Shown: one piece after another, positions 7,280 to 57,828 of the stretch
Position numbering within the stretch: position 1 is the stretch's first letter
Layout: each line of letters opens with the position of its first letter
Source: Chloroflexi bacterium 54-19
GTDB taxonomy: Bacteria; Chloroflexota; Chloroflexia; Chloroheliales; Chloroheliaceae
NCBI GenBank assembly: GCA_001898225.1
Contig: MKTJ01000044.1
Span: 62,001-126,000, forward strand
DNA: 64,000 nt
Direction of reading: 5' to 3'
The notes under the pieces: model-generated
The model's database searches: none
Seen by the model: the letters and a program-made list of their open reading frames with translations, nothing else
Told to the model about the DNA's origin: nothing
Made by a program: the position numbers and the translations under genes

Positions 7280-8910
7280 GCGTAACCCCGGTTAAAGACA
7301 AGACCGCTCCTTCGAAAAACCCGCTCTGGCGGCTGCTGCGCAAGATACTCGACCGGCCCTACCCGGTCACGCACGTCTCTTTTATCCGCAAAGAGTTGTT
7401 CGGGGCCATTCGCCAGCCTCGCCTGATACTGAGCATGGTGGTCGGGCCGTTCCTTATCCTGGCCCTGTTTGGGCTCGGCTATTTTGGGCCGGGCAACTAC
7501 GCCACCATCCTGGTCGTGCCGGATAGCCCCGGTATCTCCACCGATATTAACGAATACAAGGGAGTTATTACCCAGACTTTCAAGCTGGTCGGGGTGACCA
7601 AAAACCTCGACGAGGCCCGCCAGCAGCTAAAAGACGGCGCGGCGTCGGTCGTTATCGTGGTGCCGGACGACGCCCTGGACGAAATCTATAATGGCCGGAA
7701 CGCCTATTTCCCGGTCTACTACCGGACGCTCAGCCCGGTTGATTCGAGCTATATCGAGTACAGCACCTATATCTACGCGACCGAGTTCGACAAGGTTATC
7801 CTGCGCCAGGCCCTGGCCGCCAGCAAACCCCAGCGCAGCCAGCTACAGGAATCCTCGCGGCAAATCGACCAGAGTACGGTCGTGCTGGGCGAATCCATGC
7901 AAAACGGCGATTTATTGCAGGCTAAAGTCCAGGTTAAGTCCATGAAGGCGGTCGTCCAGATTACCCGCCGGGGTCTCGACAGCCTGATTCTGCCGGGCCA
8001 GGGCGACCCCAATTCGCCCCAGCAAAAGCTGCTGGCAGGGCGGCTTTTTAACGCGGTCACGGCCAGTGGTATCAACCAGATGAATAGCGACCTGGACAAC
8101 ATTGATACTCAGCTTACCGCCCTTGACGCCGGGTTCGACCGGGGCGACATAAACTCGTCCGCCCAGCAGGAACACCTGGCAGCCCTGCGGACGGCTAACG
8201 CCTCGCTGGGTGGGCGGGCCAGCAAGGTTGCCAATATACCCCCGTCGGTGCTGGTGGAGCCGATTCTCTCGGCGGCCAGCAACGAGGTCAAGACCCAGGT
8301 CAACTATATCAACTTCTTTGGCCCGGCGGTGGTTATCCTGCTCTTGCAGCACATCGCCGTCACGCTGGCTTCGCTCTCGAACGTGCGGGATAAACAACTC
8401 GGCGCGCTCGAAATCTTCCGGGTGGCTCCTATCAGCCCGACCCAGATTCTGACCGGCAAATTTATCAGTTTTGCTCTGTTGCTGCTGCTGTTGGGGGTGC
8501 TGCTAATCGGCCTTATAACAACTTTGCTGGGGGTGCCGTTCGTCCAGTTGGGGACGCGCTGGTTCCCGGCCTTTTTATCGCTGTTCGTGACGATTTACGC
8601 CTCGATAGGGCTCGGTTTCCTGGTGGCCGGGATTTCTCGCACCGAGAGCCAGGCGGTCCAGTTCAGCATGTTGCTGCTCCTGGGGAGTATCTTCTTCACC
8701 GGGTTTATCCTGCCCCTGAACCAGTTCGCCAGCTACATTCGCTATATCAGCTATATCCTGCCGATAACCTACGGCGCTGCCGGGCTGCAAAATACGATGC
8801 TCGATAACCAGCCTCTGAACCTGGTCTACCTGGTCGTGCCGTTTTTGCTCGGCACCCTTTTCCTGGTGATAGGGCGCTTTCTCTACCGCCGCCAGTTCGA
8901 CCTGAGCTAA
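7276..8910 (+). CDS. ABC-2 type transporter permease
   Basis: 544 residues. One membrane segment near residues 45-70 (LSMVVGPFLILALFGLGYF) is followed by a ~270-residue extracytoplasmic region with coiled-coil-like stretches, then five closely spaced membrane helices (about 345-540). This is the YhgE/ABC-2 permease layout. The string VRDKQLGALEIFRVAPISP between helices 2 and 3 is a hallmark of the ABC-2 family. Its ATG overlaps the ATPase stop (ATGA). It ends at a strong hairpin shared with the convergent lacZ gene. Confidence 0.9.
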   Translation: MSVTPVKDKTAPSKNPLWRLLRKILDRPYPVTHVSFIRKELFGAIRQPRLILSMVVGPFLILALFGLGYFGPGNYATILVVPDSPGISTDINEYKGVITQTFKLVGVTKNLDEARQQLKDGAASVVIVVPDDALDEIYNGRNAYFPVYYRTLSPVDSSYIEYSTYIYATEFDKVILRQALAASKPQRSQLQESSRQIDQSTVVLGESMQNGDLLQAKVQVKSMKAVVQITRRGLDSLILPGQGDPNSPQQKLLAGRLFNAVTASGINQMNSDLDNIDTQLTALDAGFDRGDINSSAQQEHLAALRTANASLGGRASKVANIPPSVLVEPILSAASNEVKTQVNYINFFGPAVVILLLQHIAVTLASLSNVRDKQLGALEIFRVAPISPTQILTGKFISFALLLLLLGVLLIGLITTLLGVPFVQLGTRWFPAFLSLFVTIYASIGLGFLVAGISRTESQAVQFSMLLLLGSIFFTGFILPLNQFASYIRYISYILPITYGAAGLQNTMLDNQPLNLVYLVVPFLLGTLFLVIGRFLYRRQFDLS

Positions 8911-12196: not shown

Positions 12197-12534
12197 CAGT
12201 TTTTAGTAGACAGAGGGCAGAAGGCAGAAGGCAGAGGGCAGAGGGCAGAAGGCAGAAGGCAGAGGGCAGAGGGCAGAGGGCAGAAGTCAGAAGTCAGAGG
12301 GCAGAAGGCAGAGGGCAGAGAGCAGAGGGCAGTTTTTAGTTATCGACTGCGCTCGGAGTGGCAGGATGGGAGAGGGACGGTATAAAAGGGTCCCCACTCC
12401 AATTGAAAACTTAACTTCTGACCACTGCCCTCAGCCTACTGGTTTCTGCCCTCTCTAAAAACTAAAAACTAAACACGGAAAACTGCCTTCTACCCTCAGC
12501 CTACTGCCTACTGCCCTCTGTCCTCTGACTACTA
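12197..12534. repeat. Paired inverted GGCAGAR heptamer arrays
   Basis: Some 16 tandem copies of GGCAGAR and close variants run from about 12209 to 12331, then about 80 bp of unrelated sequence including CGACTGCGCTCGGAGTGG, then a degenerate inverted array of YTCTGCC/CTACTGCC units from about 12424 to 12531. Short TTTTTAGT/ACTAAAAA runs flank the arrays. It fills the gap between lacZ and ftsY; no gene is visible. Confidence 0.85.
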
Positions 12535-24340: not shown

Positions 24341-24432
<92 letters not shown>

Positions 24433-24644: not shown

Positions 24645-25718
24645 TTATATTGCTTGTTTCTTTTTTACGAAGACTTTGAGTACGTGATTTACTAACTTTT
24701 CGAAGAATTGGGGGTAGGGAATATAATCTTCTTGTTTCCAGGTTTTTATCAAAGTTCCCCTCCCCGGTGCATATTCAATTTCTCCATCCATTTCACGTGG
24801 GGCATCCATAACATATACAGGAAACGGCTCTCCGTTATGAAGTGTTCTGGAACGTTGGTCGTAAATTTTTGCAAGAAGTTTAGGCAAACCTGATGGTTCC
24901 ACTCGTCCATTTTGCGGCCTTCCCGGCTCGTCCCAGAAATCATCCTCAATATTTTCTATTATGAAAGCAACGAACCGCTTACTTATAAATCTATCTTTAT
25001 CAACGATTGCTTTTGAAATTTTATTACGAAGATTTTCATCTTCGATTTGATTTAGCAGCTTAACGAGTTCCTTGTTTGAACCTCCTTCCCCCAATGAAGG
25101 TTTATTTATTTTGGTGTCTTGGCAGAGAACCTCGATAGCTGAGACTAGACTAAGGTAAGCTAAATCTGGTTGCTCTTCGATTGCTTGAAGAGCTTGATGA
25201 TACATTTTAACGGCTAACATGAACTTTTGGTGGTATTTTGATTCTAAGTTTTCTACTTGCGATAACCACTCGGAGAGATATTCAAGATTGCTTTGCCCCT
25301 GAATTAAACTTTTATCCACCCATTTTTTCCTCCAATTATTAGAAAACATTACTGGGTTATCATCATGCCTAACTGTGGAGGTTATCTTAAACCGCCTTCT
25401 TAAAAAAACAGAACTAAGGGAAACCAACTCGTCAGCTATTCCCCCACCATGATAGTACGCTGGCTGTTTCTGGCTCCCAAATAATTCATCGTCACTAAAA
25501 AGTTGGCGTACCTCCCTTATACCCAAACAAAGTTTACGTTCTTCTCCTTCTTTCTTATCGTTAAACTCCCAAATTTTGAAACGGTAGGGCCCGTAGTTCA
25601 AATCCCCAATTACGTTTGCATCAGTTACAACTTCGTATTCCACCGAATGTACTTCGGCTTCGGGATTATCCACATCCTTCTTATTTCTAATGAAGTACAT
25701 TACTTTCTTATTATCCAC
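24645..25718 (-). CDS. Apea-like HEPN-domain protein (possible RNase of a defence type)
   Basis: 357 residues, no signal peptide. The C-terminal third looks like a HEPN domain: a helix LAYLSLVSAIEVLCQD, then LPKLLAKIYDQRSRTLHNGEPF, whose RSRTLH is the R-x4-H motif forming the RNase-like site in many HEPN toxins and defence proteins. The N-terminal ~200 residues are not recognised. It is the leftmost gene of the integrated element, where cargo is often found, and lies alone on the minus strand. The family is common in abortive-infection settings, but such proteins are also found without known role. Function here is inferred only. Confidence 0.6.
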   Translation of the reverse strand: MDNKKVMYFIRNKKDVDNPEAEVHSVEYEVVTDANVIGDLNYGPYRFKIWEFNDKKEGEERKLCLGIREVRQLFSDDELFGSQKQPAYYHGGGIADELVSLSSVFLRRRFKITSTVRHDDNPVMFSNNWRKKWVDKSLIQGQSNLEYLSEWLSQVENLESKYHQKFMLAVKMYHQALQAIEEQPDLAYLSLVSAIEVLCQDTKINKPSLGEGGSNKELVKLLNQIEDENLRNKISKAIVDKDRFISKRFVAFIIENIEDDFWDEPGRPQNGRVEPSGLPKLLAKIYDQRSRTLHNGEPFPVYVMDAPREMDGEIEYAPGRGTLIKTWKQEDYIPYPQFFEKLVNHVLKVFVKKKQAI

Positions 25719-25775
25719 TTCATTTCTCCTTATGGGTTGGATGAGGACGGGTTCTTAAACAAACGGGTTTTACTT

Positions 25776-26147
25776 TTAGTACCGTTCTTCACGACAAGCT
25801 AAACCCTTTGATAGGATATAGATTACCGTTTTCTTATAATTTTTGGGGCTAGTTCCCCATTCGAAAACAAAGTTGCAATTAAGAAATTCGTCATTGTCTT
25901 CTCCAAAATAAATATCGGTTAGAGTTGGTAACTTTCCACTAAGCACACCTTCCTGAATAGCATTTACTGCGTTTGCGGTAAAAGTTTCCACAATAAAATT
26001 TGTTGAATCCTTACCATCCCCTCCCCACATTACTACATCAGGTTTTTTAGAAGGTGTAACTGGCTGAAGGTTTTGTTTCCCGGTACCATTACAGCAAGGG
26101 CATTTAGCTTGTCCTTGCTCTGAATAACTTTTGAAGGTTTCTCCCAT
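25776..26147 (-). CDS. Unknown small protein with CxxCxGxG zinc-binding motif
   Basis: About 123 residues from the ATG at 26147; a GTG 45 bases further upstream is an alternative. The string CPCCNGTGK near the N-terminus is the DnaJ-type zinc-binding repeat unit, here in a single copy. The remainder (FIVETFTANAVNAIQ...FVFEWGTSP) is not recognised. It sits upstream of, and in the same direction as, the HEPN-like gene with a 57-bp gap, so the two could be co-transcribed. Confidence 0.5.
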   Translation of the reverse strand: MGETFKSYSEQGQAKCPCCNGTGKQNLQPVTPSKKPDVVMWGGDGKDSTNFIVETFTANAVNAIQEGVLSGKLPTLTDIYFGEDNDEFLNCNFVFEWGTSPKNYKKTVIYILSKGLACREERY

Positions 26148-26424
26148 TTTATTTTCACTCTCTAGATAGCAAGCTACTTTAAAATTCCCCACTATTCTGG
26201 TAAATTCAAATATTGTTTATTAACTACATCAACAATGTCCTTTAATAATACTGCAAAATTCAAATTTTTGATATGACTCTTTTTGAATTTCTATGTTAAA
26301 ATATTTTCAGCACCGCAACATTAACCATGAAACAAATCGTAATACTGTGTTTGAAGATAAACTCAACGCACCTTTGCATCCGTCATGATGTGTTATACCT
26401 TGCTATGAAAAGAGGATTAAGACA

Positions 26425-27342
26425 ATGGTTGCTTATCGGCTCGTTTTTCCAAGATTACTCCTGATTCTTTCGATATTTCTAGTCCTTTTACTTGCCGCTT
26501 GTGGAGATAATCCTACTCCCGTACCTTCTACCACAACACCGGCTATACAAGCCGCCGCCCAGCCTACCCCTAATATTCAAGATACGGTTGCCGCCCAGGT
26601 AAAAGCGACTATTGCAGCCATGCCTACAGCTACGGTTGCCGTTCCACCTACAGCTACAGCTATCCCAGCTACAGCAACCCCCGCCCCCACAGCAACAAAA
26701 GCTCCTACTCCAACAGCAAAGGCAACCGCTACATCTGCTCCTACGGCTACCCCGGCTCCTACTCCTACCCCAAAATCAGTACCTAAACCGATAGATATTG
26801 TTGGCTCTGGCGATAAACTGACAAACGAAATACTTCTTCCACAAGGGGCAAACTACATTATTGTGAATCATACAGGCCAGAATTATTTTGGAGTAAAGCT
26901 ACTGAATGAAAGCGGAGATATGGTAGATTTGGTAGCTAATACAATCGGCCCGTATAAGGGCACAAAGTTTTTAGAAGTACCCGTAACTGGAAAATACCTT
27001 TTTGAGATTCAGTCGGAAGGTAATTGGGCCTTAAATATTACAACGATAGATGCTTTGAAGGAAGGTGCGATACCGGCTGTTGATTTCCCATTAAAGGGGA
27101 AAGGTGATACTGCTCTTTTGGTAAATGTACCTCAGGAGGGTTTACTAAAGTTTAAGTTAACACATAATGGTAATAATTACTTTGGGGTAACTGTTCGAGA
27201 TGCGTCTGATGGCTCACAAGCTGCTTTACTTGCTAACACTGTTGGAAAATATAGCGGTGAAAAAGCTCAAAGGTTTGGAGATGGAATATTTCCCTTTCAG
27301 ATACAAGCTGATGGAGATTGGACTATAGAGCTTATTCAGTGA
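26425..27342 (+). CDS. Surface lipoprotein with Pro/Thr-rich stalk and two tandem repeat domains
   Basis: 305 residues. The signal peptide ends in LLAAC|G (lipobox Cys about residue 27). Residues ~30-115 are a Pro/Thr/Ala stalk. The rest is two copies of a ~75-residue unit, aligned by NHTGQNYFGVKLLNESGD / THNGNNYFGVTVRDASDG and ending EIQSEGNWALNI / QIQADGDWTIEL. The unit looks like a beta-sandwich of the kind used in carbohydrate or protein adhesion, but I do not recognise the family. Upstream TTGATA (26268-26273), 18 bp, TATGTT may be its promoter. It would display the two domains outside the cell. Confidence 0.8.
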   Translation: MVAYRLVFPRLLLILSIFLVLLLAACGDNPTPVPSTTTPAIQAAAQPTPNIQDTVAAQVKATIAAMPTATVAVPPTATAIPATATPAPTATKAPTPTAKATATSAPTATPAPTPTPKSVPKPIDIVGSGDKLTNEILLPQGANYIIVNHTGQNYFGVKLLNESGDMVDLVANTIGPYKGTKFLEVPVTGKYLFEIQSEGNWALNITTIDALKEGAIPAVDFPLKGKGDTALLVNVPQEGLLKFKLTHNGNNYFGVTVRDASDGSQAALLANTVGKYSGEKAQRFGDGIFPFQIQADGDWTIELIQ

Positions 27343-27530
27343 TAAAAATTTCTGACACTATAAAACTACGACTTCCAGTTGTAGTGGTACAGCCGGAAGT
27401 GATTGATGGGGTAGCAAGCTGCACCAGGGACACTGGGCGACCCACTAAAGGCTATACCGTTGTTATCAGCGTTTATTTCACGTATAACGGACAGAGTTAT
27501 AGCGGCTCTATAAGTTTTACGCCCCCATAG
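27339..27530 (+). CDS. Unknown short protein, possibly coupled to the lipoprotein gene
   Basis: About 63 residues from a GTG that overlaps the TGA of the lipoprotein gene (GTGA). It is rich in beta-forming residues (LRLPVVVVQPEV, YTVVISVYFTYNGQSYSGS) and has no recognisable domain. No separate ribosome binding site is apparent. It could be translated by coupling, or could be the decayed tail of a longer gene. Confidence 0.35.
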   Translation: MIKISDTIKLRLPVVVVQPEVIDGVASCTRDTGRPTKGYTVVISVYFTYNGQSYSGSISFTPP

Positions 27531-27629
27531 TTTCTATTTCTATGACGTATGACTCGATTTAAGTTGTACGCCTTGCTCAACTATTGTTATTCAACATATT
27601 TAGTCGGCCAACAGGCTAGGAGGCTTATT

Positions 27630-27821
27630 ATGGGTCTTTTCGGGAAAAACAAGTGCCAGAACTGCCACAAATGTGGTAGAAGCACAGCCGGTAAAGTACT
27701 TTCCACTGTTACAGGTGCTAACACGGTTGGCCGGGCCGCTTTCGGCGTTTCAGCGGGCTTGTTCATGCGGAAATGTGGTGTGTGCGGGCACTATATGGCC
27801 GAACACGGTAAGAGTAAATAA
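27630..27821 (+). CDS. Small cysteine-rich (zinc-ribbon-like) protein
   Basis: 63 residues. The ATG at 27630 is fixed by a perfect AGGAGG at 27618-27623. Two cysteine clusters, CQNCHKCG near the start and KCGVCGHY near the end, flank a Gly/Ala/Val middle (VGRAAFGVSAGLF) that may be a weak membrane segment. Not recognised as a known family; zinc binding is inferred from cysteine spacing. Confidence 0.6.
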   Translation: MGLFGKNKCQNCHKCGRSTAGKVLSTVTGANTVGRAAFGVSAGLFMRKCGVCGHYMAEHGKSK

Positions 27822-27898
27822 AATCCTCAGTTTGGTGGTTTTTGGCGCACAACATGGGTGATATATTGTGCGCCTCACTCTTTATTAAGCAGGGCCAT

Positions 27899-29341
27899 AT
27901 GTTGTGCAAACTTTGTGCTAAAGAGTATTCCGGTTTTGAGTGCCCTCGTTGTGGTTTGGGCAAGAATGAGAGTCCGATAGTAACCCCGCTCCATTTTGGA
28001 AAGCATAAAGGGCTTACGGTAGAACAGGTACTTAAGATTTCGCCATCCTATCTACGCTGGATGGTTTCTCACGAAGCTGGAACTCCTGCACAAAGAGCGC
28101 AAGCCAGACTTTATTTAGAACAGACCCAGTACAACTACAAATTCAGACTTCGGCCATCTGAGAACGAAGGGCCATCAGATTTAACACAATTTACTAACTC
28201 GCAGATTGGTACAAAGTGGCCTACCCCCACGCCACCAGCACCAACACAACCTTTTCCAAGAGTAGTGCCTCAAGCCCCTATGCCCCGGCCCCAACCCCGC
28301 CCGGTGCAACCTTATGCCTATCAAAGCTATAACTCCGTCCAAGTTCCCTTTAAATCCATCCAACCGGCCTATCCGAAAAAAGAAAAGAGAATACCGGGCG
28401 GCTTATGGGCTATTATCATTGTTGGCGGTATCATATTATTTGCATTGGTAGCCGCCGCCTCGAAGAATAATTCACAGACTGGAACAAGCCGGGCAAATCC
28501 AACGAGTGCCGGTGTAATAGCCAGTTCAAATAATAGTAGTAATCAAGCTGTAGCCAATCCCAGTCAAGCAGTTAATCCAACCAAAACTTCAGCTAACACT
28601 AAGGCTGTAGTAAATCCCACATCTACTTCGGCACCAGTCCAAGCGCCCTCTCAGTCAGAACCCAGTAAGGCAAATCTACAGTATGCGATAGTTACGAATG
28701 TAGTAGATGGCGATACCATAGATGTTGCTACGCTCTCTTCGGGGAATATGCGAATTCGCTTGATTGGAATGGATACGCCTGAAACAAAAGACCCGAACAG
28801 GCCGGTTATGTGCTTCGGCCAAGAAGCCACTAATAAAACTGTTGAACTTCTGAACCAATCCAATAATGAAGTCTACCTGGAAAAAGATGTATCCGAAACG
28901 GACAGGTACGGGCGGTTTCTGAGGTATGTTTGGATTACTGAGCCGGATGGCAAGCTCTACATGCTAAATGAAGAGTTGGTAAGATGGGGCTTTGCCCAGG
29001 CGGCCACTTATCCACCGGACGTAAAGTATCAATCCAGGTTCGTAAGCCTTACCAGCGAGGCGAGAAACGCTAACAGAGGACTCTGGTCAGTTTGTGGTAG
29101 TTTTGGAGTGCCGTTGGTAGCCCCAACTGTTGCCCCTCCACCGCCCGCCGCCCAGCAACCAGAAAGAGTTGTAACCGACGAATCCTACCCCTGCCTCGAC
29201 GGCCAAATAAAAGGTAACAACAATAGCGGCATATACCATATGCCCTGGCAACAGTATTATGCGGCAACTTACAGCAACGTCCAGTGTTTCGATTCTGAGC
29301 AGGAGGCAATAAATGCTGGCTTCAGGAAAGCAAAAGTTTAA
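27899..29341 (+). CDS. Membrane-anchored staphylococcal-nuclease-like protein with zinc ribbon and C-terminal IKGN-type domain
   Basis: About 480 residues from the ATG at 27899 (AGGG just upstream). Order: zinc ribbon CKLCAKEYSGFECPRCG (1-20); a DUF3820-like piece LHFGKHKGLTVEQVLKISPSYLRWM (about 33-57); proline-rich linker; one membrane helix near 170-190 (GLWAIIIVGGIILFALVAAA); Ser/Asn/Thr stalk; a thermonuclease domain (about 260-400) with VVDGDTIDV, IRLIGMDTPE, EVYLEKD and DRYGRFLRYV, covering the usual catalytic Asp/Arg/Glu positions; then a ~45-residue end domain IKGNNNSGIYHMP...GFRKAK. The nuclease part should lie outside the cytoplasm and the zinc ribbon inside. The end domain also occurs in the element's other lipoprotein (37418-37942). 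Confidence 0.8.
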   Translation: MLCKLCAKEYSGFECPRCGLGKNESPIVTPLHFGKHKGLTVEQVLKISPSYLRWMVSHEAGTPAQRAQARLYLEQTQYNYKFRLRPSENEGPSDLTQFTNSQIGTKWPTPTPPAPTQPFPRVVPQAPMPRPQPRPVQPYAYQSYNSVQVPFKSIQPAYPKKEKRIPGGLWAIIIVGGIILFALVAAASKNNSQTGTSRANPTSAGVIASSNNSSNQAVANPSQAVNPTKTSANTKAVVNPTSTSAPVQAPSQSEPSKANLQYAIVTNVVDGDTIDVATLSSGNMRIRLIGMDTPETKDPNRPVMCFGQEATNKTVELLNQSNNEVYLEKDVSETDRYGRFLRYVWITEPDGKLYMLNEELVRWGFAQAATYPPDVKYQSRFVSLTSEARNANRGLWSVCGSFGVPLVAPTVAPPPPAAQQPERVVTDESYPCLDGQIKGNNNSGIYHMPWQQYYAATYSNVQCFDSEQEAINAGFRKAKV

Positions 29342-29361
29342 TTCTATCTATGGAGTGACTA

Positions 29362-30174
29362 ATGTTTAAATTTGTAAAACAAACAAGGGTTGATGGGAAG
29401 ATTATTATACAAGTGGAGAAACATTTAATCATTCCCTTTGGCCGCCCTAAGTGGGATATAAGTAAAATTCAAATAAAAAGCGTATCGACTAACGCCACCT
29501 ACTTTTCAAGTGATACTCCCTGTGTTTATATAGATGCCACAAAAAATGAGCCGGTACGTTTCACAGATATTGATGTTGTGTTCATAGAAGATTTAGCTGA
29601 TGAGGTACGCTTCGATGAAAATGCTTTTGAAGACGTAATGTTAATCAAAGACAATCTACAAGCTAATTATGAGGTTCAAACGGCTTCGGAAAAACAGTTT
29701 TTAGATTTATATTTTGATTACTGTGTTTCCATTATTAAGCCAACTAAAATCACTGAATTTTTACATGGTAGTAATCGAGATAATTATCCTGCCCCTCTAA
29801 ACCACCCTCGTTGGGTTTTCCAGGCCCTTTTACCTTTACCACAAGCACACCTTTACCTTGAAGACCCACTTGAAGAAAAGTTTTCTTACACCCCTGAGAA
29901 CATGTTTAAGGTGGATTTTGCTTTTTGGACTGGTGAACGAATTGTAGCTATTGAAATTGATGGTTCCTCACATATAGGCAGCGAGACCCACGTACGAAAG
30001 GATAGATTACTTCAAAGAGCAGGCGTACAAGTTATTCATATTTTGAACAGCGAAATAACAAAATACAAGGAGAGACTAATCCCGGCTTTACTTCCAGATG
30101 AAATAACACAGTTTTGGAAAAGTGTTGAACCTGAAAAAGGACTTGCTAACCCTCTAACCTTACCCTTCTTTTAG
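29362..30174 (+). CDS. Putative nuclease with C-terminal PD-(D/E)XK (DUF559/Vsr-like) domain
   Basis: 270 residues, cytoplasmic by composition. The last ~100 residues fit an endonuclease core: KVDFAFWTGERIVAIEIDG gives the Asp, then the E-x-D pair on the next strand, followed by HVRKDRLLQRAGVQVIHI, the helix-strand with basic residues seen in Vsr/DUF559 proteins. The N-terminal ~130 residues are not recognised and could be a recognition or regulatory part. The gene starts 20 bp after the thermonuclease-like gene and is followed 51 bp later by a HEPN-type gene in the same direction. Role in nucleic-acid degradation or defence is an inference. Confidence 0.6.
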   Translation: MFKFVKQTRVDGKIIIQVEKHLIIPFGRPKWDISKIQIKSVSTNATYFSSDTPCVYIDATKNEPVRFTDIDVVFIEDLADEVRFDENAFEDVMLIKDNLQANYEVQTASEKQFLDLYFDYCVSIIKPTKITEFLHGSNRDNYPAPLNHPRWVFQALLPLPQAHLYLEDPLEEKFSYTPENMFKVDFAFWTGERIVAIEIDGSSHIGSETHVRKDRLLQRAGVQVIHILNSEITKYKERLIPALLPDEITQFWKSVEPEKGLANPLTLPFF

Positions 30175-30225
30175 TATAACTTTTGAGTCATTTGGAATTA
30201 GTTAAGACTTACTAATGGAGGAAAC

Positions 30226-30918
30226 ATGGACATCCCTATCGCATTAGTTCTTGAACCAGATTTCCGTCCTAATCTGTCCTATAGTTTCCTTCAATCGGCA
30301 GCTTACTTTTCTCGAATGTCCCACAAAATTGAAATAGAAGTTACTGACCGAAGCCTCCAGCTAGTAGAGTACAAAGCAAACTCAACGGCAGCAGTAATTT
30401 TTGCGATAACAGCAGTAGAGGCTGTTATTAATGAGCTTTATACCGATGCAGTTGACGGTATCAAGGAAGCCTTTAAGAACTTGGACCCATTAGTTTCTGA
30501 TTCAATGGCGTTAGTTTGGAACGATTTTAAGGATAAGGAGAATTTCTTCCTGAAATTTAATTTCGTACTCACCCTAGCAAAAAAGCCTACCTTTGTTAAA
30601 GGTTCTAACCCTGGTCAGGATATGCTAACTTTGGTTTCTCTACGAAATAACTTAATCCACTTTAAGCCCGAATGGAAATCAACTCAAGATGAGCATAAAA
30701 AATTGGAAGATAGACTTAGGGGTAAGTTCGAACTTAATCCTTATGCACCTGATTACCGGCCATTCTTCCCGGATAAGTGCTTGGGGCATGGGTGTGCTGA
30801 ATGGGCGGTAAAAACAAGTATCGCTTTTTTAGATGAGTTCTATATAAGATTGGGAAAACGTAAGTATACCAATTTTTGGAGTGCCGATTCGAAGTTACTC
30901 AAAACTCAGTGGGTATGA
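30226..30918 (+). CDS. HEPN-type protein of unknown function
   Basis: 230 residues. A mostly helical protein with the segment LRNNLIHFKPEW; RNNLIH is the R-x4-H motif of HEPN domains, and an earlier helix (AVIFAITAVEAVINELYTDA) contains the conserved small-E-x-x-I/L pattern of the same fold. GGAGG at 30216-30220 precedes the ATG by 5 bases. It follows the nuclease-like gene in the same direction. HEPN proteins are often toxins or RNases in defence modules, yet this sub-type (R-N-x-L-I-H-F-x-P-E-W) is widespread and poorly characterised. Confidence 0.6.
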   Translation: MDIPIALVLEPDFRPNLSYSFLQSAAYFSRMSHKIEIEVTDRSLQLVEYKANSTAAVIFAITAVEAVINELYTDAVDGIKEAFKNLDPLVSDSMALVWNDFKDKENFFLKFNFVLTLAKKPTFVKGSNPGQDMLTLVSLRNNLIHFKPEWKSTQDEHKKLEDRLRGKFELNPYAPDYRPFFPDKCLGHGCAEWAVKTSIAFLDEFYIRLGKRKYTNFWSADSKLLKTQWV

Positions 30919-31096: not shown

Positions 31097-31126
31097 TGTG
31101 GATAACTGGGTGACAAGTTATCCACC
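31097..31126. other. Inverted pair of DnaA-box-like 9-mers
   Basis: TGTGGATAA (31097-31105) and TTATCCACC (31118-31126) face each other and form a 10-bp-arm inverted repeat GTGGATAACT-N8-AGTTATCCAC. The first is a perfect DnaA box (reverse strand); the second differs at the last base. It lies in the AT-rich non-coding part of the element. Confidence 0.6.
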
Positions 31127-31142
31127 GATGTTATAATTACTT

Positions 31143-31283
31143 TTACCAGATAATTTTTTCTGGTACAGAACAAGAAAAGAGCCGCTCCGGGGGTAACTTT
31201 GACGGGGAACCCACTTCACGGCTCGTTTCAGTATTCATTGAGGGGGGATTTTAAATATTTAAAATATCCCTCTCAATGAATAT
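31143..31283 (+). other. Structured non-coding segment upstream of the 43-residue peptide
   Basis: Successive hairpins: TACCAGA/TCTGGTA (31142-31163 region), a GAGCCG/CGGCTC-closed domain of ~45 nt with a G-rich interior, and a long imperfect palindrome TATTCATTGAG (31232-31242) / CTCAATGAATA (31272-31282) with AATATT at its centre. This looks like an RNA leader or a protein-binding region. I cannot assign it to a known RNA family. Confidence 0.4.
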
Positions 31284-31414
31284 TATTGCACGGTTGCGCC
31301 ATAAAAACAACTGGCTAATATCGAATTAATTCGAATCCGGCAGTAGTTATTAATCTGAAACGAGAAATACGAGCGGTTTCTTTTCCAAGCCACTAACTGG
31401 AAAGGGACCAACAT

Positions 31415-31546
31415 ATGCATCCGTTGACAATCGACGCACATACTTACCTCGACATCTTGGGCACTATCCTCTTGATTTTGACCCAGGTTAACCGCTTTAT
31501 CGGCCTCATCATTAAACTGGTGGCGCTGCTCAAGCGGCGTAACTAG
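31415..31546 (+). CDS. 43-residue membrane peptide
   Basis: The frame MHPLTIDAHTYLDILGTILL... continues with a hydrophobic helix (residues ~13-39: ILGTILLILTQ, then FIGLIIKLVALL) and ends KRRN. AAGGGA at 31402-31407 lies 7 bases before the ATG and a perfect 9-bp-arm terminator begins 10 bases after the stop, so the open frame is framed exactly like a real gene. The basic tail suggests the C-terminus is in the cytoplasm. Size and layout resemble small toxins of type I systems, small holin-like proteins, or regulatory membrane peptides. No antisense promoter was identified. Confidence 0.6.
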   Translation: MHPLTIDAHTYLDILGTILLILTQVNRFIGLIIKLVALLKRRN

Positions 31547-31555
31547 CGAGCAGTG

Positions 31556-31593
31556 AAGGCCCGCTGGCCCGTAACAGGGTTGGCGGGCCTTTC
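31556..31593 (+). terminator. Terminator of the 43-residue peptide gene
   Basis: AAGGCCCGC (31556-31564) pairs with GCGGGCCTT (31583-31591), followed by TTC. Confidence 0.65.
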
Positions 31594-31632: not shown

Positions 31633-31740
31633 CCCCTAGTATCAATTTTGAGACTACCCCTAGTATCAAATCTGATACGTGCCTAGTATCAAAACTGATA
31701 TATAAAAGAAGATACAATATAAGTAGATACAATATAAAGA
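31633..31740. repeat. Iteron cluster with adjoining AT-rich tract
   Basis: CTAGTATCAA occurs at 31636, 31660 and 31683, a 23-24 bp spacing. Each copy continues into an inverted GTATCA-N4-TGATAC motif (degenerate in the first). Two copies of AGATACAATATAA (31710-31722, 31725-31737) and an AT-rich stretch to about 31770 follow. The same CTAGTATCAA/GTATCA-N4-TGATAC unit recurs inside the replication-initiator gene. From there to 32726 the element holds no convincing gene. Confidence 0.7.
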
Positions 31741-32104
31741 AGATTTATATATTTTTTCTTACGAAAAAATAATAAGCAGGTAAGGGGTAATTATTAAAAT
31801 CTTCTACACCCTCCCTGCTTATCTGTTTAGAAAGAATACTTCTATCAAGAAGGTACCCTTCGTATATAAATCTTGCTAGTTATAAAACCCCTCACCCCCT
31901 ACCCCCTCTCCCCTTGTTAAACCTCGTAAAATTGAGAGCGGCGGTTACCACTTAAACTCAATTTGACTCCAAAGGCCACTTAGAACCCCGTAGCGGCCTT
32001 TACCACTGTTTTAGAGTAGTTTATCATTCTTGCGCTATCACCGGCCTTCCATGACTCCCCAACATGGATTTGAGTCAATCTAGCTAGTAGTCCAAAGTAA
32101 ATAA

Positions 32105-34295: not shown

Positions 34296-35384
34296 CTAAA
34301 AGGGTATTTCTTCCCTTGATGAACTTTTCAGTCGTTTGCCAGGAGCTGGTACATCGGGGCAGCCTTCCAATATCATAGCCGCAGTGAAGCTTGCTGGGTC
34401 ATCAATGCTTGATTGTTTCTTCGCCCAAGCATACATATCCCTTATATATTGAGGTTCACGCTTGTTATCCATTAAAAAATGGATTAACTTATCGGTATTA
34501 TTTATATTACATGCCTCTAAGACGGTATTATATTCAAAGATGAGGTAAGCCTTCTCTAATTTTTCTGTTAAAGGCATTTCGCCGATAGACGATTTTTTAG
34601 AAAAATCGTGGAACGTAGATAGAGTATTATTTAAGGGAGTATTATTAAAGTTAGAGTATTGATTGGGTCGCAAATCTGCGACTTTCGAAACTGGCAAATC
34701 TGCGACTTTCGAAACTGGCAAATCTGCGACTTTCGTATGTACCAAATTTGATACTAGGGTAGTATCAGAATTGATACTAGGGGTATTTTCTGATAGTGGT
34801 GTGGCTTGCTGCGCGGGAGCTTCCTGGCTGGCACCTTCCCGTTCGGGTAACTCTAACAAGGTATAGACATTCGGCTCGTTCTTGCGCTTTTCTTTGTTGA
34901 ATTGTCGGTGGACGTGGATTAGGGCGAATGTTTCTAGTTCATCGGTTGCTCTGATTACTGTATCCACCGATTTACCCATCTTTATTGCTAACTGCTCTTG
35001 TGTGTAATAACAGGAATAGCTTCCTCCTACCCCGCCTTCAACTGCGCGTTCCAAAACCATATAAAGCCTTAATGCCGTGTTGCTCAAGAGCGGTAAGTAT
35101 ATATCAACAAAATTGTTTGGCGTTTGGAAGTAGTTTTCTTCAAGGACACCTTTTAATTTGAGGCCAGGAGGTAGGGGAACTTGACGGTATTTCCCTACGT
35201 TGATTACTCGCGTTGAATCAAGGGGAGTAGCCGCGCCTGTACCGGCTGTACCTGAAATAGTTGTCGTGCCAGTTTCGGTTGTACCGGCACTCACCGCACT
35301 CTTTGAGGCGGCATGGTACCGGGATTCAGGTACAAAATTGGTTACTGGTACAGAGTTAGATACAGAAGCAGATACAATAGTCAT
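34296..35384 (-). CDS. Replication initiator-like protein (winged-HTH, lambda-O-like layout)
   Basis: 362 residues; AAAGGAAC precedes the ATG. After a Ser/Thr-rich lead (~60 residues), residues ~75-180 contain FVDIYLPLLSNTALRLYMVLE...YYTQEQLAIKMGKSVDTVIRATDELE, an HTH of the kind found in phage and plasmid replication initiators. The middle (~190-250) is a low-complexity linker with the octapeptide KVADLPVS repeated, encoded by 24-bp DNA repeats. The C-terminal ~100 residues (AWAKKQSSIDDPASFTAAMI) form a helical domain that may recruit a helicase. DNA-binding N-terminus, repeats inside the gene, helical C-terminus is the architecture of lambda O. Family identity is inferred from this layout, not from a clear sequence signature. 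Confidence 0.65.
   Translation of the reverse strand: MTIVSASVSNSVPVTNFVPESRYHAASKSAVSAGTTETGTTTISGTAGTGAATPLDSTRVINVGKYRQVPLPPGLKLKGVLEENYFQTPNNFVDIYLPLLSNTALRLYMVLERAVEGGVGGSYSCYYTQEQLAIKMGKSVDTVIRATDELETFALIHVHRQFNKEKRKNEPNVYTLLELPEREGASQEAPAQQATPLSENTPSINSDTTLVSNLVHTKVADLPVSKVADLPVSKVADLRPNQYSNFNNTPLNNTLSTFHDFSKKSSIGEMPLTEKLEKAYLIFEYNTVLEACNINNTDKLIHFLMDNKREPQYIRDMYAWAKKQSSIDDPASFTAAMILEGCPDVPAPGKRLKSSSREEIPF
34600..34797. other. Candidate replication origin inside the initiator gene
   Basis: Three pieces lie side by side: an AT-rich tract (about 34600-34665); 2.75 tandem copies of the 24-bp unit GCAAATCTGCGACTTTCGAA+ACTG (34670-34735); and two to three GTATCA-N4-TGATAC units (34739-34754 imperfect, 34762-34777 perfect) with TTGATACTAG at 34748 and 34771. 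The last match the iterons at 31.6 kb in inverted orientation. Initiator-bound direct repeats beside an AT-rich region is the standard origin layout. Confidence 0.6.
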
Positions 35385-35739: not shown

Positions 35740-36108
35740 CTAAGAAGTCTTAGCCGCCCTGGCTTTGGCAGAATTATCATCACGAAATTTCCTCAGAAAT
35801 AGGGCCAGTTCGGCTTTGGCTTTTTCGTCCAGAATTATTGTCCGGCCTGCGCTCTCCGACTCAATTTTCAGGTGCGCCTCTAAAAGCTCTTCCTCGGTCA
35901 TAGCCGGCGCTTCTTGTCCGGCTGTAGCCCGCAGCCGCAACCCTTCCATATCCGAAACCCGCACATAGGCCCGCTTGTCGCCTATCTTTCTGAACGTGGT
36001 TAGATTTTTCTTTTTGGCATGGTAGTAGATTGCATCGCGGGTGATACCATATCGCCGCACCGCTTCCTCAATCGGAATCAAATCTGGGACATTTATGTCT
36101 ACCGGCAT
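35740..36108 (-). CDS. Excisionase/MerR-like helix-turn-helix regulator
   Basis: 122 residues. The N-terminal ~60 residues, LIPIEEAVRRYGITRDAIYY...FRKIGDKRAYVRVSDMEGL, are a winged HTH of the excisionase/HTH_17 type: short recognition helix, basic wing and a closing 'V-R-x-S-D-L/M' helix. The C-terminal half is a charged helix of unknown role. It has its own consensus promoter and diverges from the gene at 36340 across a region with repeated TGTGTAA sites. Together with the integrase this points to control of excision or of the element's early genes. Confidence 0.7.
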   Translation of the reverse strand: MPVDINVPDLIPIEEAVRRYGITRDAIYYHAKKKNLTTFRKIGDKRAYVRVSDMEGLRLRATAGQEAPAMTEEELLEAHLKIESESAGRTIILDEKAKAELALFLRKFRDDNSAKARAAKTS

Positions 36109-38070: not shown

Positions 38071-39105
38071 TTATTTCCATTTTAACGGCCTACCACGCCT
38101 TTGCAAGCCCGGTAAGGTTCCATTCAAGGCAGTTAGAGGCGAATTAGGCCGGTGCAGGTCTGCAAGGCGTTCAGGGTTGCGCTGGACATAAACCTGAGTC
38201 GTGTTGATGCTGGTATGGCCTAGTAAGTCCCGAAGCTCGAACACACTTACCCGGCTACTCATCATCAAGGCGAAAGTATGCCGCAACTGGTGAGCGTGAA
38301 AGTCTACTCCACTCCTTAATCGAAGGCGGCGAATAATGGTGTTAAACCCCCATAGCCCTAAAGGCTCCCCCTCGACAGTCATCCAGAGCGGCCCATCTGC
38401 CCCGGCCTCCAAGCGCACCTTGAGATAGTCCATCAATACACCTTTGCACTTCTCGGAGAAATAAGCTTGACGTTGGCCGGTCTTGCCTCGAATAACGCAG
38501 CGTAGCTTGTGTATATCCAGGTCGCTTATGTTTAAGGAAAGTAGCTCGCCGCGCCGGATACCGGCATCCAGAAGCAAGCTGACAATAGCCAGGTCACGCT
38601 TGCCGGTAAAGGTAGCAACCCGCTCGGAATCGGTAAGGTAGGCAAAGAGGGCGGCCAGCTTATCAGCCGACACGTTTTTGATTATCGTATCTTTTTTGTG
38701 GTTACTGGAGAACTTGACGCTCTTGTTAAAGGGGTTCTGCTTGATGTGTCCTTCTTGTTCGAGCCAGGAAAAGAAAACCTTGATGGTTCGGCCATATGAA
38801 ACTACACTGGCCGGGGATAGTTCTTGATGCGCCTCACTACTGCCCCACCTATTAGTTTGAGGTGTTTTCAGATAGGCGGCAAATTCGCGGGCCTCTTTAA
38901 CTGTTACTGCCTGGGGACTTATACCAAGTTGCCTTGAATAGCCGGTATGGGTTTCCCACCACCAGACAAATTTCGGTACTTTCTCCTGATAATCTTTTAT
39001 TGTGCGGGGAGACAAATCTTCCAGGCGGCAATAATCCAGCCAGGTTTCGATATAATGATTGAAAGTAAGGGAATTTTTTGAAGGATTAGGTGTTTTTGTT
39101 GGCAT
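38071..39105 (-). CDS. Tyrosine recombinase (integrase)
   Basis: 344 residues from the ATG at 39105, which has GAGG six bases upstream. The N-terminal SAM-like core-binding domain (YIETWLDYCRLEDLSPRTIKDY) precedes the catalytic domain. Catalytic residues are visible: Arg in GIRRGELLSL, Lys in GKTGQRQ, HQLRHTF (H-x-x-R), GHTSINTT (His) and the nucleophile Tyr in TQVYVQRNP. It reads away from, and begins 42 bp from, the right att repeat, the normal position for an integrase acting at a tRNA 3' end. It is expected to integrate and excise the 14.8-kb element. Confidence 0.95.
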   Translation of the reverse strand: MPTKTPNPSKNSLTFNHYIETWLDYCRLEDLSPRTIKDYQEKVPKFVWWWETHTGYSRQLGISPQAVTVKEAREFAAYLKTPQTNRWGSSEAHQELSPASVVSYGRTIKVFFSWLEQEGHIKQNPFNKSVKFSSNHKKDTIIKNVSADKLAALFAYLTDSERVATFTGKRDLAIVSLLLDAGIRRGELLSLNISDLDIHKLRCVIRGKTGQRQAYFSEKCKGVLMDYLKVRLEAGADGPLWMTVEGEPLGLWGFNTIIRRLRLRSGVDFHAHQLRHTFALMMSSRVSVFELRDLLGHTSINTTQVYVQRNPERLADLHRPNSPLTALNGTLPGLQRRGRPLKWK

Positions 39106-39147
39106 GTGCAACCTCTTTCGAGATTGCGTTTAGCCTATTGGAGTGGT

Positions 39148-39239
<92 letters not shown>

Positions 39240-43635: not shown

Positions 43636-43970
43636 CAAAGTTTTTAGTGTTCAGTTTTTAGTTTTTAGCAGGCAGAAGCCCGAAGTCAGTTTTCAAAACG
43701 AGGCTCTCACTTTTCATTCCTTGCTTTCTTTTGTCATTCCGGGGCTTGTCCCCGGAATCTCCAGTCCGTTGGACAATAGCACCGTCGAAGGTCCATGACA
43801 GAGTTTTGGACTTTGCATTCGCCTTGTATCCTATTAAATCTACGCTTTTTCGGGTGGCAGTGTTTCATCCGGCCCGTTGGACAATATCCACGTTGTCTCA
43901 ACACTGGATTCTGACTACTGCCTTCTGCCTTCTGCCTTCTGCCCTCTGCCCTCTGACTACTGACTTGCCA
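43636..43970. repeat. Composite dispersed-repeat block between the basic-protein gene and ppa
   Basis: TTTTTAGT-type runs, a variant hairpin unit GTCATTCCGGGG-CTTGT-CCCCGGAATC with the CAGTCCGTTGGACAATAGCAC tail (43734-43785), and an inverted run of YTCTGCC heptamers (about 43916-43958). The 43517-44079 gap shows no gene. Confidence 0.75.
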
Positions 43971-47437: not shown

Positions 47438-48008
47438 TTTTTAGTTTTTAGTTTTTAGTAGGCAGAGGGCAGAAGTCAGAAGGCAGTAGTCAGAAGGCAG
47501 AAGGGAGAAGACAGAGGGGAGTAGGCAGAAGGGAGTAGGCAGAAGGCAGAAGGCAGAGGGCAGAGGGGAGTAGGCAGAAGGCAGAAGGCAGAGGGTAGAG
47601 GGGAGTAGGTAGAGGGCAGTAGGCAGAGTATTGTCATTCCGTAAGCCGCTTCTAGAAAGGTGACTTGCTAAAAAACGCGCGGCGGGTTACGGAATCTCGC
47701 GCGTTGCGTACCGTAAAGCCCAAAACTTTCCCATATTCCGGGCAGAATCAGGTTTCGACCTTACTCACGTTGAACCTGGCTAAGTCTTCGACTGTGATAT
47801 TGTCCAACGGGACCCACATGTGGGTACCCCGATTCCTCGCTGCGGCTCGGAATGACACTACTCTGACTTCTGCCCTCTACCTACTCCCCTCTGACCTCTG
47901 ACTTCTACTAAACACTAAATAGTGGCTACTGCCCTCTGCCCTCTGCCTACTGCCTTCTGCCTTCTGCCCTCTGTCTTCTGGCTACTGCCCTCTGCCCTCT
48001 GACTACTC
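47438..48008. repeat. Full composite repeat: heptamer array, hairpin units, inverted heptamer array
   Basis: GGCAGAR-type units run from about 47458 to 47625. Then an ATTCCGTAAGCCGC...GCGGCGGGTTACGGAAT unit (47636-47710), an inverted copy of the CATTCCGAGCC unit (about 47800-47857), and finally an inverted YTCTGCC array (about 47868-48003). It is the most complete copy in the window and fills most of the 993-bp gap upstream of hrcA. Confidence 0.85.
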
Positions 48009-57502: not shown

Positions 57503-57828
57503 AGTAGTCAGAGGGCAGAGGGCAGAGGGCAGAAGGCAGAAGGCAGAGGGCAGAAGGCAGAGGGCAGAGGGCAGAGGGCAGAGGGCAGAGGGCAGAGGGC
57601 AGAGGGCAGAGGGCAGAGGGATACAAAGTTTTTAGTTATCAGTGTTTAGTTTTTAGTAGCCCCGCCACGTCTTGCGGGTGCGTGTGCGGTACGAAATAGA
57701 AATAAAGACAATTGAGACCGCCTGAAGTGAAAAACTGCCTACCGGCTTCTGACTACTACCCTCTGCCTTCTGGCTACTGCCTACTGCCTTCTGCCCTCTG
57801 CCTACCGGCTACTGCCCTCTGCCCTGTT
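57503..57828. repeat. Paired inverted heptamer arrays upstream of the pyr operon
   Basis: About 16 near-perfect GGCAGAR units run from 57511 to 57620, one of the cleanest runs in the window. After ~110 bp with AGTTTTTAGT and an unrelated spacer come inverted YTCTGCC/CTACTGCC units to about 57828. No gene lies in 57392-57958. Confidence 0.85.

Follow-up and report, generated by a model that had tools for sequence, protein, structure and literature searches.

Does a replication initiator gene carry, within its own coding sequence, the origin at which its product acts? The question is raised by a gene in the 64,000-nucleotide stretch of Chloroflexi bacterium 54-19 DNA analysed here (contig MKTJ01000044.1, hereafter the window). 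The initial annotation reported repeats and AT-rich DNA in the linker of the encoded protein, Rep, and read them as an origin embedded in the initiator gene in the manner of lambda O. We examined this reading by profile, structure, repeat and codon-shuffling analyses, and compared the locus with distant relatives and with known systems. The features are collected in Table 1.

Table 1. Positions of the initiator gene, iterons, AT-rich tracts and element boundaries in the window
Feature	Position	Strand	Evidence
Left att repeat with tRNA-Pro(GGG) copy	24341-24432	plus	92-bp repeat; ARAGORN
Inverted pair of DnaA-box-like sites (one exact TTATCCACA, one TTATCCACC)	31097-31126	no strand	
Second, non-coding iteron cluster of three sites at 24- and 23-bp spacing	31639-31701	plus	element self-comparison
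Possible unwinding element, AT-rich with 15-bp repeats, immediately behind the non-coding iterons	31702-31790	plus	
Rep, replication initiator, 362 aa	34296-35384	minus	PF13730 and phrog profile matches
Possible unwinding element, AT-rich with 15-bp repeats, immediately behind the in-gene array	34605-34665	minus	
In-gene iterons 3 to 5 (GTCGCAGATTTGCCAG twice, GTCGCAGATTTGCGAC), within 24-bp tandem units	34667-34730	minus	TRF, palindrome scan
In-gene iterons 1 and 2 (GTATCAATTCTGATAC, GTATCAAATTTGGTAC), 23 bp apart, in different frames	34739-34777	minus	palindrome scan, matrix
Small HTH protein, possible excisionase	35740-36108	minus	phrog_66 excisionase/regulator, E 0.0057, weak
Tyrosine-recombinase integrase	38071-39111	minus	PF00589, E 3.3e-23; phrog_1 integrase, E 6.5e-42
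Right att repeat with tRNA-Pro(GGG) copy, beside PPK2-like gene	39148-39239	plus	92-bp repeat; ARAGORN

The initiator protein and the array in its linker

Pfam places Rep among the HTH_36 proteins: the domain (PF13730) spans residues 100-153 and scores 29.1 bits against a curated cut-off of 25. Among phrog profiles, DnaD-like and O-like phage initiators matched best (E 5e-13 to 4e-10), with part of these scores stemming from the iteron-encoded linker, through which the alignments partly run. Pfam matches of Rep at E up to 1 included no Phage_rep_O (PF04492), RepA_N (PF06970) or Rep_3 (PF01051), and the resemblance to O is confined to the remote 'O-like' phrog profiles. Judged from these matches, the gene encodes an initiator of the HTH_36 type rather than a demonstrable member of Phage_rep_O, RepA_N or Rep_3. 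Upstream of its ATG lies AAAGGAAC, which resembles a ribosome-binding site.

Structure prediction of the N-terminal domain, which the initial annotation had suggested, yielded a winged helix. The model of residues 76-185, built from an alignment of Rep with viral relatives, has a mean pLDDT of 67 and a core of about 83-90. Its closest BFVD matches are phage HTH proteins and initiator or replication proteins; in the PDB it mostly matched regulators, of the MarR type and others, and the Rep-DNA complex 5kbj aligned with it at a TM of 0.55. A single-sequence AlphaFold model of full-length Rep reached a pLDDT of 32 and was discarded.

Relaxing the palindrome to GT(M)(K)CA-N4-TG(M)(K)AC revealed that the repeats in the gene form one array of five palindromic sites, which begin at 34667, 34691, 34715, 34739 and 34762 and are thus spaced by 24, 24, 24 and 23 bp. 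The array extends over 34667-34777, with AT-rich DNA coming next on the coding strand, and corresponds to about residues 200-240 of Rep, between the HTH domain and the C-terminal part, in agreement with the location first described. The 2.75 tandem 24-bp repeats encoding KVADLPVS were recovered by TRF at 34670-34735 with 100% matches (KVADLPVS-KVADLPVS-KVADL), and two GTATCA-N4-TGATAC sites, where two to three had been claimed, are present, a perfect one at 34762-34777 and one with one mismatch at 34739-34754. Likewise, the AT-rich tract reported within the gene is there: it contains tandem 15-bp repeats at 34620-34660, and the 60-bp window from 34594 is 75% AT.

The 24-bp units are not separate from the iterons, as each of them holds a diverged palindromic site of the relaxed form. 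The palindrome in the last unit is perfect (GTCGCA-GATT-TGCGAC), and those in the other two units have two mismatches each. Plain in-register identity between the 24-bp unit and iteron 2 (13/24, p 0.05 against a synonymous null) is only suggestive; as sequence evidence for the kinship of the units to the iterons, the perfect palindrome carries more weight.

The integrated element and its second iteron cluster

Rep is encoded on a 14.8-kb element that is integrated in tRNA-Pro and bounded by perfect 92-bp direct repeats. Its GC content is 44%, whereas most of the DNA on either side is at about 53-60%; the tyrosine integrase, the direct att repeats at a tRNA and the atypical composition identify it as a tRNA-integrated mobile element. 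The gene beside the right tRNA-Pro is one that we take, from reading the sequence by eye, to be PPK2-like. The neighbourhood of tRNA-Pro and this gene is also found in a same-genus genome (L161), in which the left flank is not conserved and no empty integration site was found. No helicase, helicase loader, primase or relaxase was recognised among the element genes scanned with Pfam; no capsid, structural or packaging genes were recognised among the Pfam-scanned genes, of which a PHROGs scan covered part.

The cargo of the element (24645-30918) comprises a nuclease, a DUF559 protein, a lipoprotein-like protein and uncharacterised proteins. The nuclease combines an SNase (staphylococcal-nuclease-like) domain with an ExoX-like C-terminal domain and matches the PADLOC SNc+LTD model. 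The window additionally contains 7-bp tandem arrays of the CAGAGGG / CTGCCCT type at 12211-12332, 43909-43966, 47460-47628, 47926-48007, 57509-57620 and 57735-57823.

Comparison of the element with itself revealed a second iteron cluster 3 kb away from the in-gene array and inverted relative to it, within 1.8 kb in which no gene was recognised. In both clusters an AT-rich tract with 15-bp repeats comes after the iterons in the same direction. Behind the non-coding iterons the tandem repeats occupy 31702-31744, and this cluster adjoins the 60 bp with the highest AT content in the element (87%, at 31716). Throughout the 9.25-Mb assembly the 20-bp iteron word, with up to 3 mismatches, occurs five times, twice in the gene and three times in the non-coding cluster, and the reversed control under the same threshold occurs 0 times. 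Moreover, the perfect 16-bp palindrome is found at only two places in the genome, one per cluster.

Two other indicators of an origin were set aside. DnaA boxes were given little weight, with 19 sites (at most 1 mismatch) in the window; the inverted DnaA-box-like pair in Table 1 also looks terminator-like and could instead be a minus-strand terminator hairpin. GC skew has its minimum at 26.8 kb, which was not significant (block-shuffle p 0.06) and was dropped as an origin locator.

Beside the non-coding iterons lies a 43-aa hydrophobic ORF (31416-31547, plus strand) that looks like a type I toxin-like unit. Its promoter-like site, which is TG-extended, stands at 31110-31137, its leader contains a strong hairpin (31228-31288, z -7.5), and a terminator-like hairpin comes after it (31555-31592). 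No convincing relative of this ORF was found in 158 class genomes.

Constraint on the DNA and arrays in other initiator genes

Sites 1 and 2 are spaced 23 bp apart and therefore fall in different reading frames, in which one DNA word is read as SINSDTT and as VSNLVHT. A matrix built only from the non-coding sites gave the in-gene sites 32.4 and 25.2 bits; the second score was reached in 0 of 2000 synonymous-usage versions and 0 of 2000 codon-permuted versions of the gene. When repeats spaced 20-27 bp were compared with codon permutations, p was 0.002 for the Rep gene and 0.008 for lambda O, the positive control. The reading of one word in two frames, its loss under synonymous shuffling and the presence of a second cluster in DNA with no recognised gene show that the constraint acts on the DNA and not on the protein. 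Under the best explanation, the peptide encoded by the array (SDTTLVSNLVHTKVADLPVS...) would then be mainly a tolerated linker.

No close homologue of full-length Rep was found in phages, genome contigs, family genomes, 158 class genomes or viral contigs, and therefore the conservation of the exact array is not traceable. The best plasmid match is an HTH protein of Alicyclobacillus dauci with 24% identity. A match to Lactococcus pVF22, in which a DLPLTAVS repeat array stands beside repB, resembles only the KVADLPVS repeat and was rejected as a homologue. Distant initiators of the class were gathered by profile search with up to 20 kb of context. In several of them the corresponding place, immediately behind the HTH domain, holds palindromic iterons of another sequence: GTGTCCAGAAATCGGACAC in L126, TGTCGGAAAAACCGACA in L130, CTGCAAATTTTGCAG in L133 and TGGTAAAAAAACTTTACCA in L136. 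Spaced repeats (20-27 bp) exceeded codon constraint at p<=0.025 in 14 of 22 genes, the window gene included, the relatives among them being mutually not fully independent. The initial annotation had asked whether the repeats are conserved beyond codon constraint in relatives; these 14 genes have spaced repeats of this kind, and the exact array has no close homologue in which to follow it. A matching cluster outside the gene was absent from the relatives examined (at most 20 kb of context, with several contigs short) and present in the window element alone; the second cluster is therefore no general rule.

One of these relatives, L133 (G000:C9, oriented 8041-8607), is a second HTH initiator-like gene in the genome of the window itself, with iterons of its own and DnaA-box-like sites just ahead of them. 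L127 and L128 are initiator-like proteins of 590-604 aa from same-family genomes, with GTGTGGTCTGCGGTAAA-type repeats upstream of the gene; these repeats may be the iterons of a different type of replicon.

When viral contigs were scanned for neighbouring pairs of GTATCA-N4-TGATAC palindromes, 13 contigs were returned. In 12 of them the pair is located in an HTH gene or at its end, behind the HTH domain; these 12 include several that are closely related to one another and so do not represent 12 independent cases. Most of their HTH proteins match replication-initiator profiles. In L147 the HTH evidence is weak, and in L157 the array extends beyond the end of the HTH frame. In L055 the protein has HTH_36 and DnaB_2 domains, and the next gene looks like a DnaC-type ATPase. 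These contigs (L055 and L147-L157, from IMG/VR) share with the window the same palindromic word, mostly a spacing of 21-24 bp, and the position in the linker after the HTH domain, and their arrays too fall into several reading frames (IKNDT and VSNLI types). However, they differ from the window in that their arrays lie in the gene only, and their proteins are 14-22% identical to Rep in the alignment. An iteron-pair scan of genome contigs gave 6 matches in unrelated taxa, L045 among them, and paired perfect palindromes were not found in the 158 class genomes. Other viral arrays, at L060 9021-9100, L079 9260-9490 and L115 7584-7680, consist of CTAGTATCA-containing repeats and not of the palindromic iteron.

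Precedents, proposed mechanism and alternatives

In phage lambda, the iterons of ori-lambda lie in the middle of the O gene (PMC7466680; NC_001416). The window gene resembles O in its mid-gene iterons after a DNA-binding domain, in their 20-24 bp spacing and imperfect palindromes, and in an AT-rich tract downstream on the coding strand. Unlike O, it has a different iteron word, and no P-type helicase loader was recognised in the window element; lambda has four iterons, annotated at spacings of 20, 24 and 23 bp, whereas the window gene has five. We know of no second iteron cluster in lambda. The lambda-O-style reading originally proposed is supported in part: it is well supported as architecture, and lambda O matches in geometry and in the shuffle tests; by Pfam, Rep is no Phage_rep_O protein, and the second cluster had been missed.

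Plasmid pSK41 encodes a RepA_N-type Rep with Rep boxes central in rep and a dispensable linker, and the Rep of pPR9, which supports autonomous replication, has an HTH_36 (PF13730) N-terminal domain (PMC5703833). The window gene shares the central sites with the former and the HTH_36 type, here predicted, with the latter, with the differences that its Rep shows no RepA_N domain, its host belongs to a different group and its element carries a second iteron cluster. In phage SPP1, oriL lies inside gene 38 and oriR is intergenic; gp38 binds the repeats in its own gene as well as the second, similar site, an AT-rich unwinding region is found at both origins, and gp39 and gp40 serve as helicase loader and helicase (PMC6316719). 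Because of the second cluster in the window element, SPP1 is the closest precedent. The likeness, repeats in the initiator gene plus a distant non-coding site with an AT-rich tract at both, is one of layout. The SPP1 sites are about 13 kb apart on a circular genome, whereas those of the window are 3 kb apart in an integrated element, and no counterpart of gp39 or gp40 was recognised in that element by Pfam.

We consider it likely, judging from sequence, that the gene encodes a theta-type initiator with iterons in its own linker and a second set elsewhere, the two clusters being arranged like oriL and oriR of SPP1. By analogy with lambda (PMC7466680), SPP1 (PMC6316719) and pSK41 (PMC5703833), we infer how binding, melting and helicase loading may proceed. 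The winged-helix N-terminal domain of Rep would bind, as a dimer, the palindromes GT(M)(K)CA-N4-TG(M)(K)AC, whose 23-24 bp steps would amount to slightly over two helical turns. After excision of the element, Rep dimers would fill one iteron cluster, and the filled cluster would distort the DNA and open the AT-rich tract beside it. The host replicative helicase would then be recruited via the C-terminal part of Rep. The two clusters would be either a pair of origins, both bound by Rep, or a single origin with a site for control or stalling, and the in-gene cluster may accordingly serve as one origin of a pair or as a regulatory copy.

A different division of labour would make the non-coding region 31639-31790 the sole origin and leave the in-gene array to control, by titration, by handcuffing or looping of the inverted clusters, or as a roadblock to rep transcription. 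In its favour, the word in the non-coding cluster matches better, the tract beside it is the most AT-rich of the element (87% AT), and no gene is recognised in the 1.8 kb around it. However, no cluster outside the gene was seen in the DNA examined from relatives and phages that have in-gene arrays, and such arrays seem sufficient as origins there; moreover, the in-gene array of the window has more sites (five) and an AT-rich tract of its own. We regard a sole non-coding origin as possible but doubtful.

It seems unlikely that the sites are operators of an HTH transcription regulator and no origin at all. Palindromic sites and a winged helix are typical of repressors too, and regulators, of the MarR type and others, lead the PDB matches of the model; yet the sites stand 0.6 kb from the gene start, inside the gene, and the arrays, of three to five sites each, have AT-rich flanks and the spacing of iterons. 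The profiles and the viral relatives also point to replication initiators, and the viral structure library returned phage HTH and replication proteins. Even less probable, in our view, is that the repeats are a feature of the protein, with the KVADLPVS peptide selected for flexibility or partner binding in the linker, or that they arose recently by neutral tandem duplication. A duplication of that kind would fit two of the 24-bp units, which are identical and in frame, but for iterons 1 and 2 this reading is contradicted by one DNA word giving differing peptides in two frames. The same word occurs in DNA with no recognised gene and is lost under synonymous shuffling, and the viral genes are equally independent of frame.

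Origins within initiator genes have long been known, and the window is a well-supported further example of a known design. What is new is that a small integrated element combines two clusters, together with the evidence that in-gene palindromic iterons, with a varying word, recur across HTH-type initiators; among the open-licence papers searched, we found none that describes a survey of in-gene iterons across such initiators. More tentatively, we hypothesize that one Rep drives two inverted origins 3 kb apart that communicate by looping or handcuffing to set copy number, and that HTH_36-type initiators of unrelated phages and elements re-use a portable palindromic iteron (GTATCA-N4-TGATAC and variants) in their linkers. 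If the iteron is portable in this sense, the specificity of an initiator would be readable from its own gene.

The compact element with its two clusters would allow the roles of the in-gene and the intergenic iteron sets to be separated. If the group generally carries its sites in the linker, the specificity of an uncharacterised initiator would be predictable from the gene alone. The corresponding search rule is to look for frame-independent palindromes at 22-25 bp spacing after the HTH domain, with synonymous shuffling as a computable test, and origins in phages and integrated elements would then be findable without experiments.
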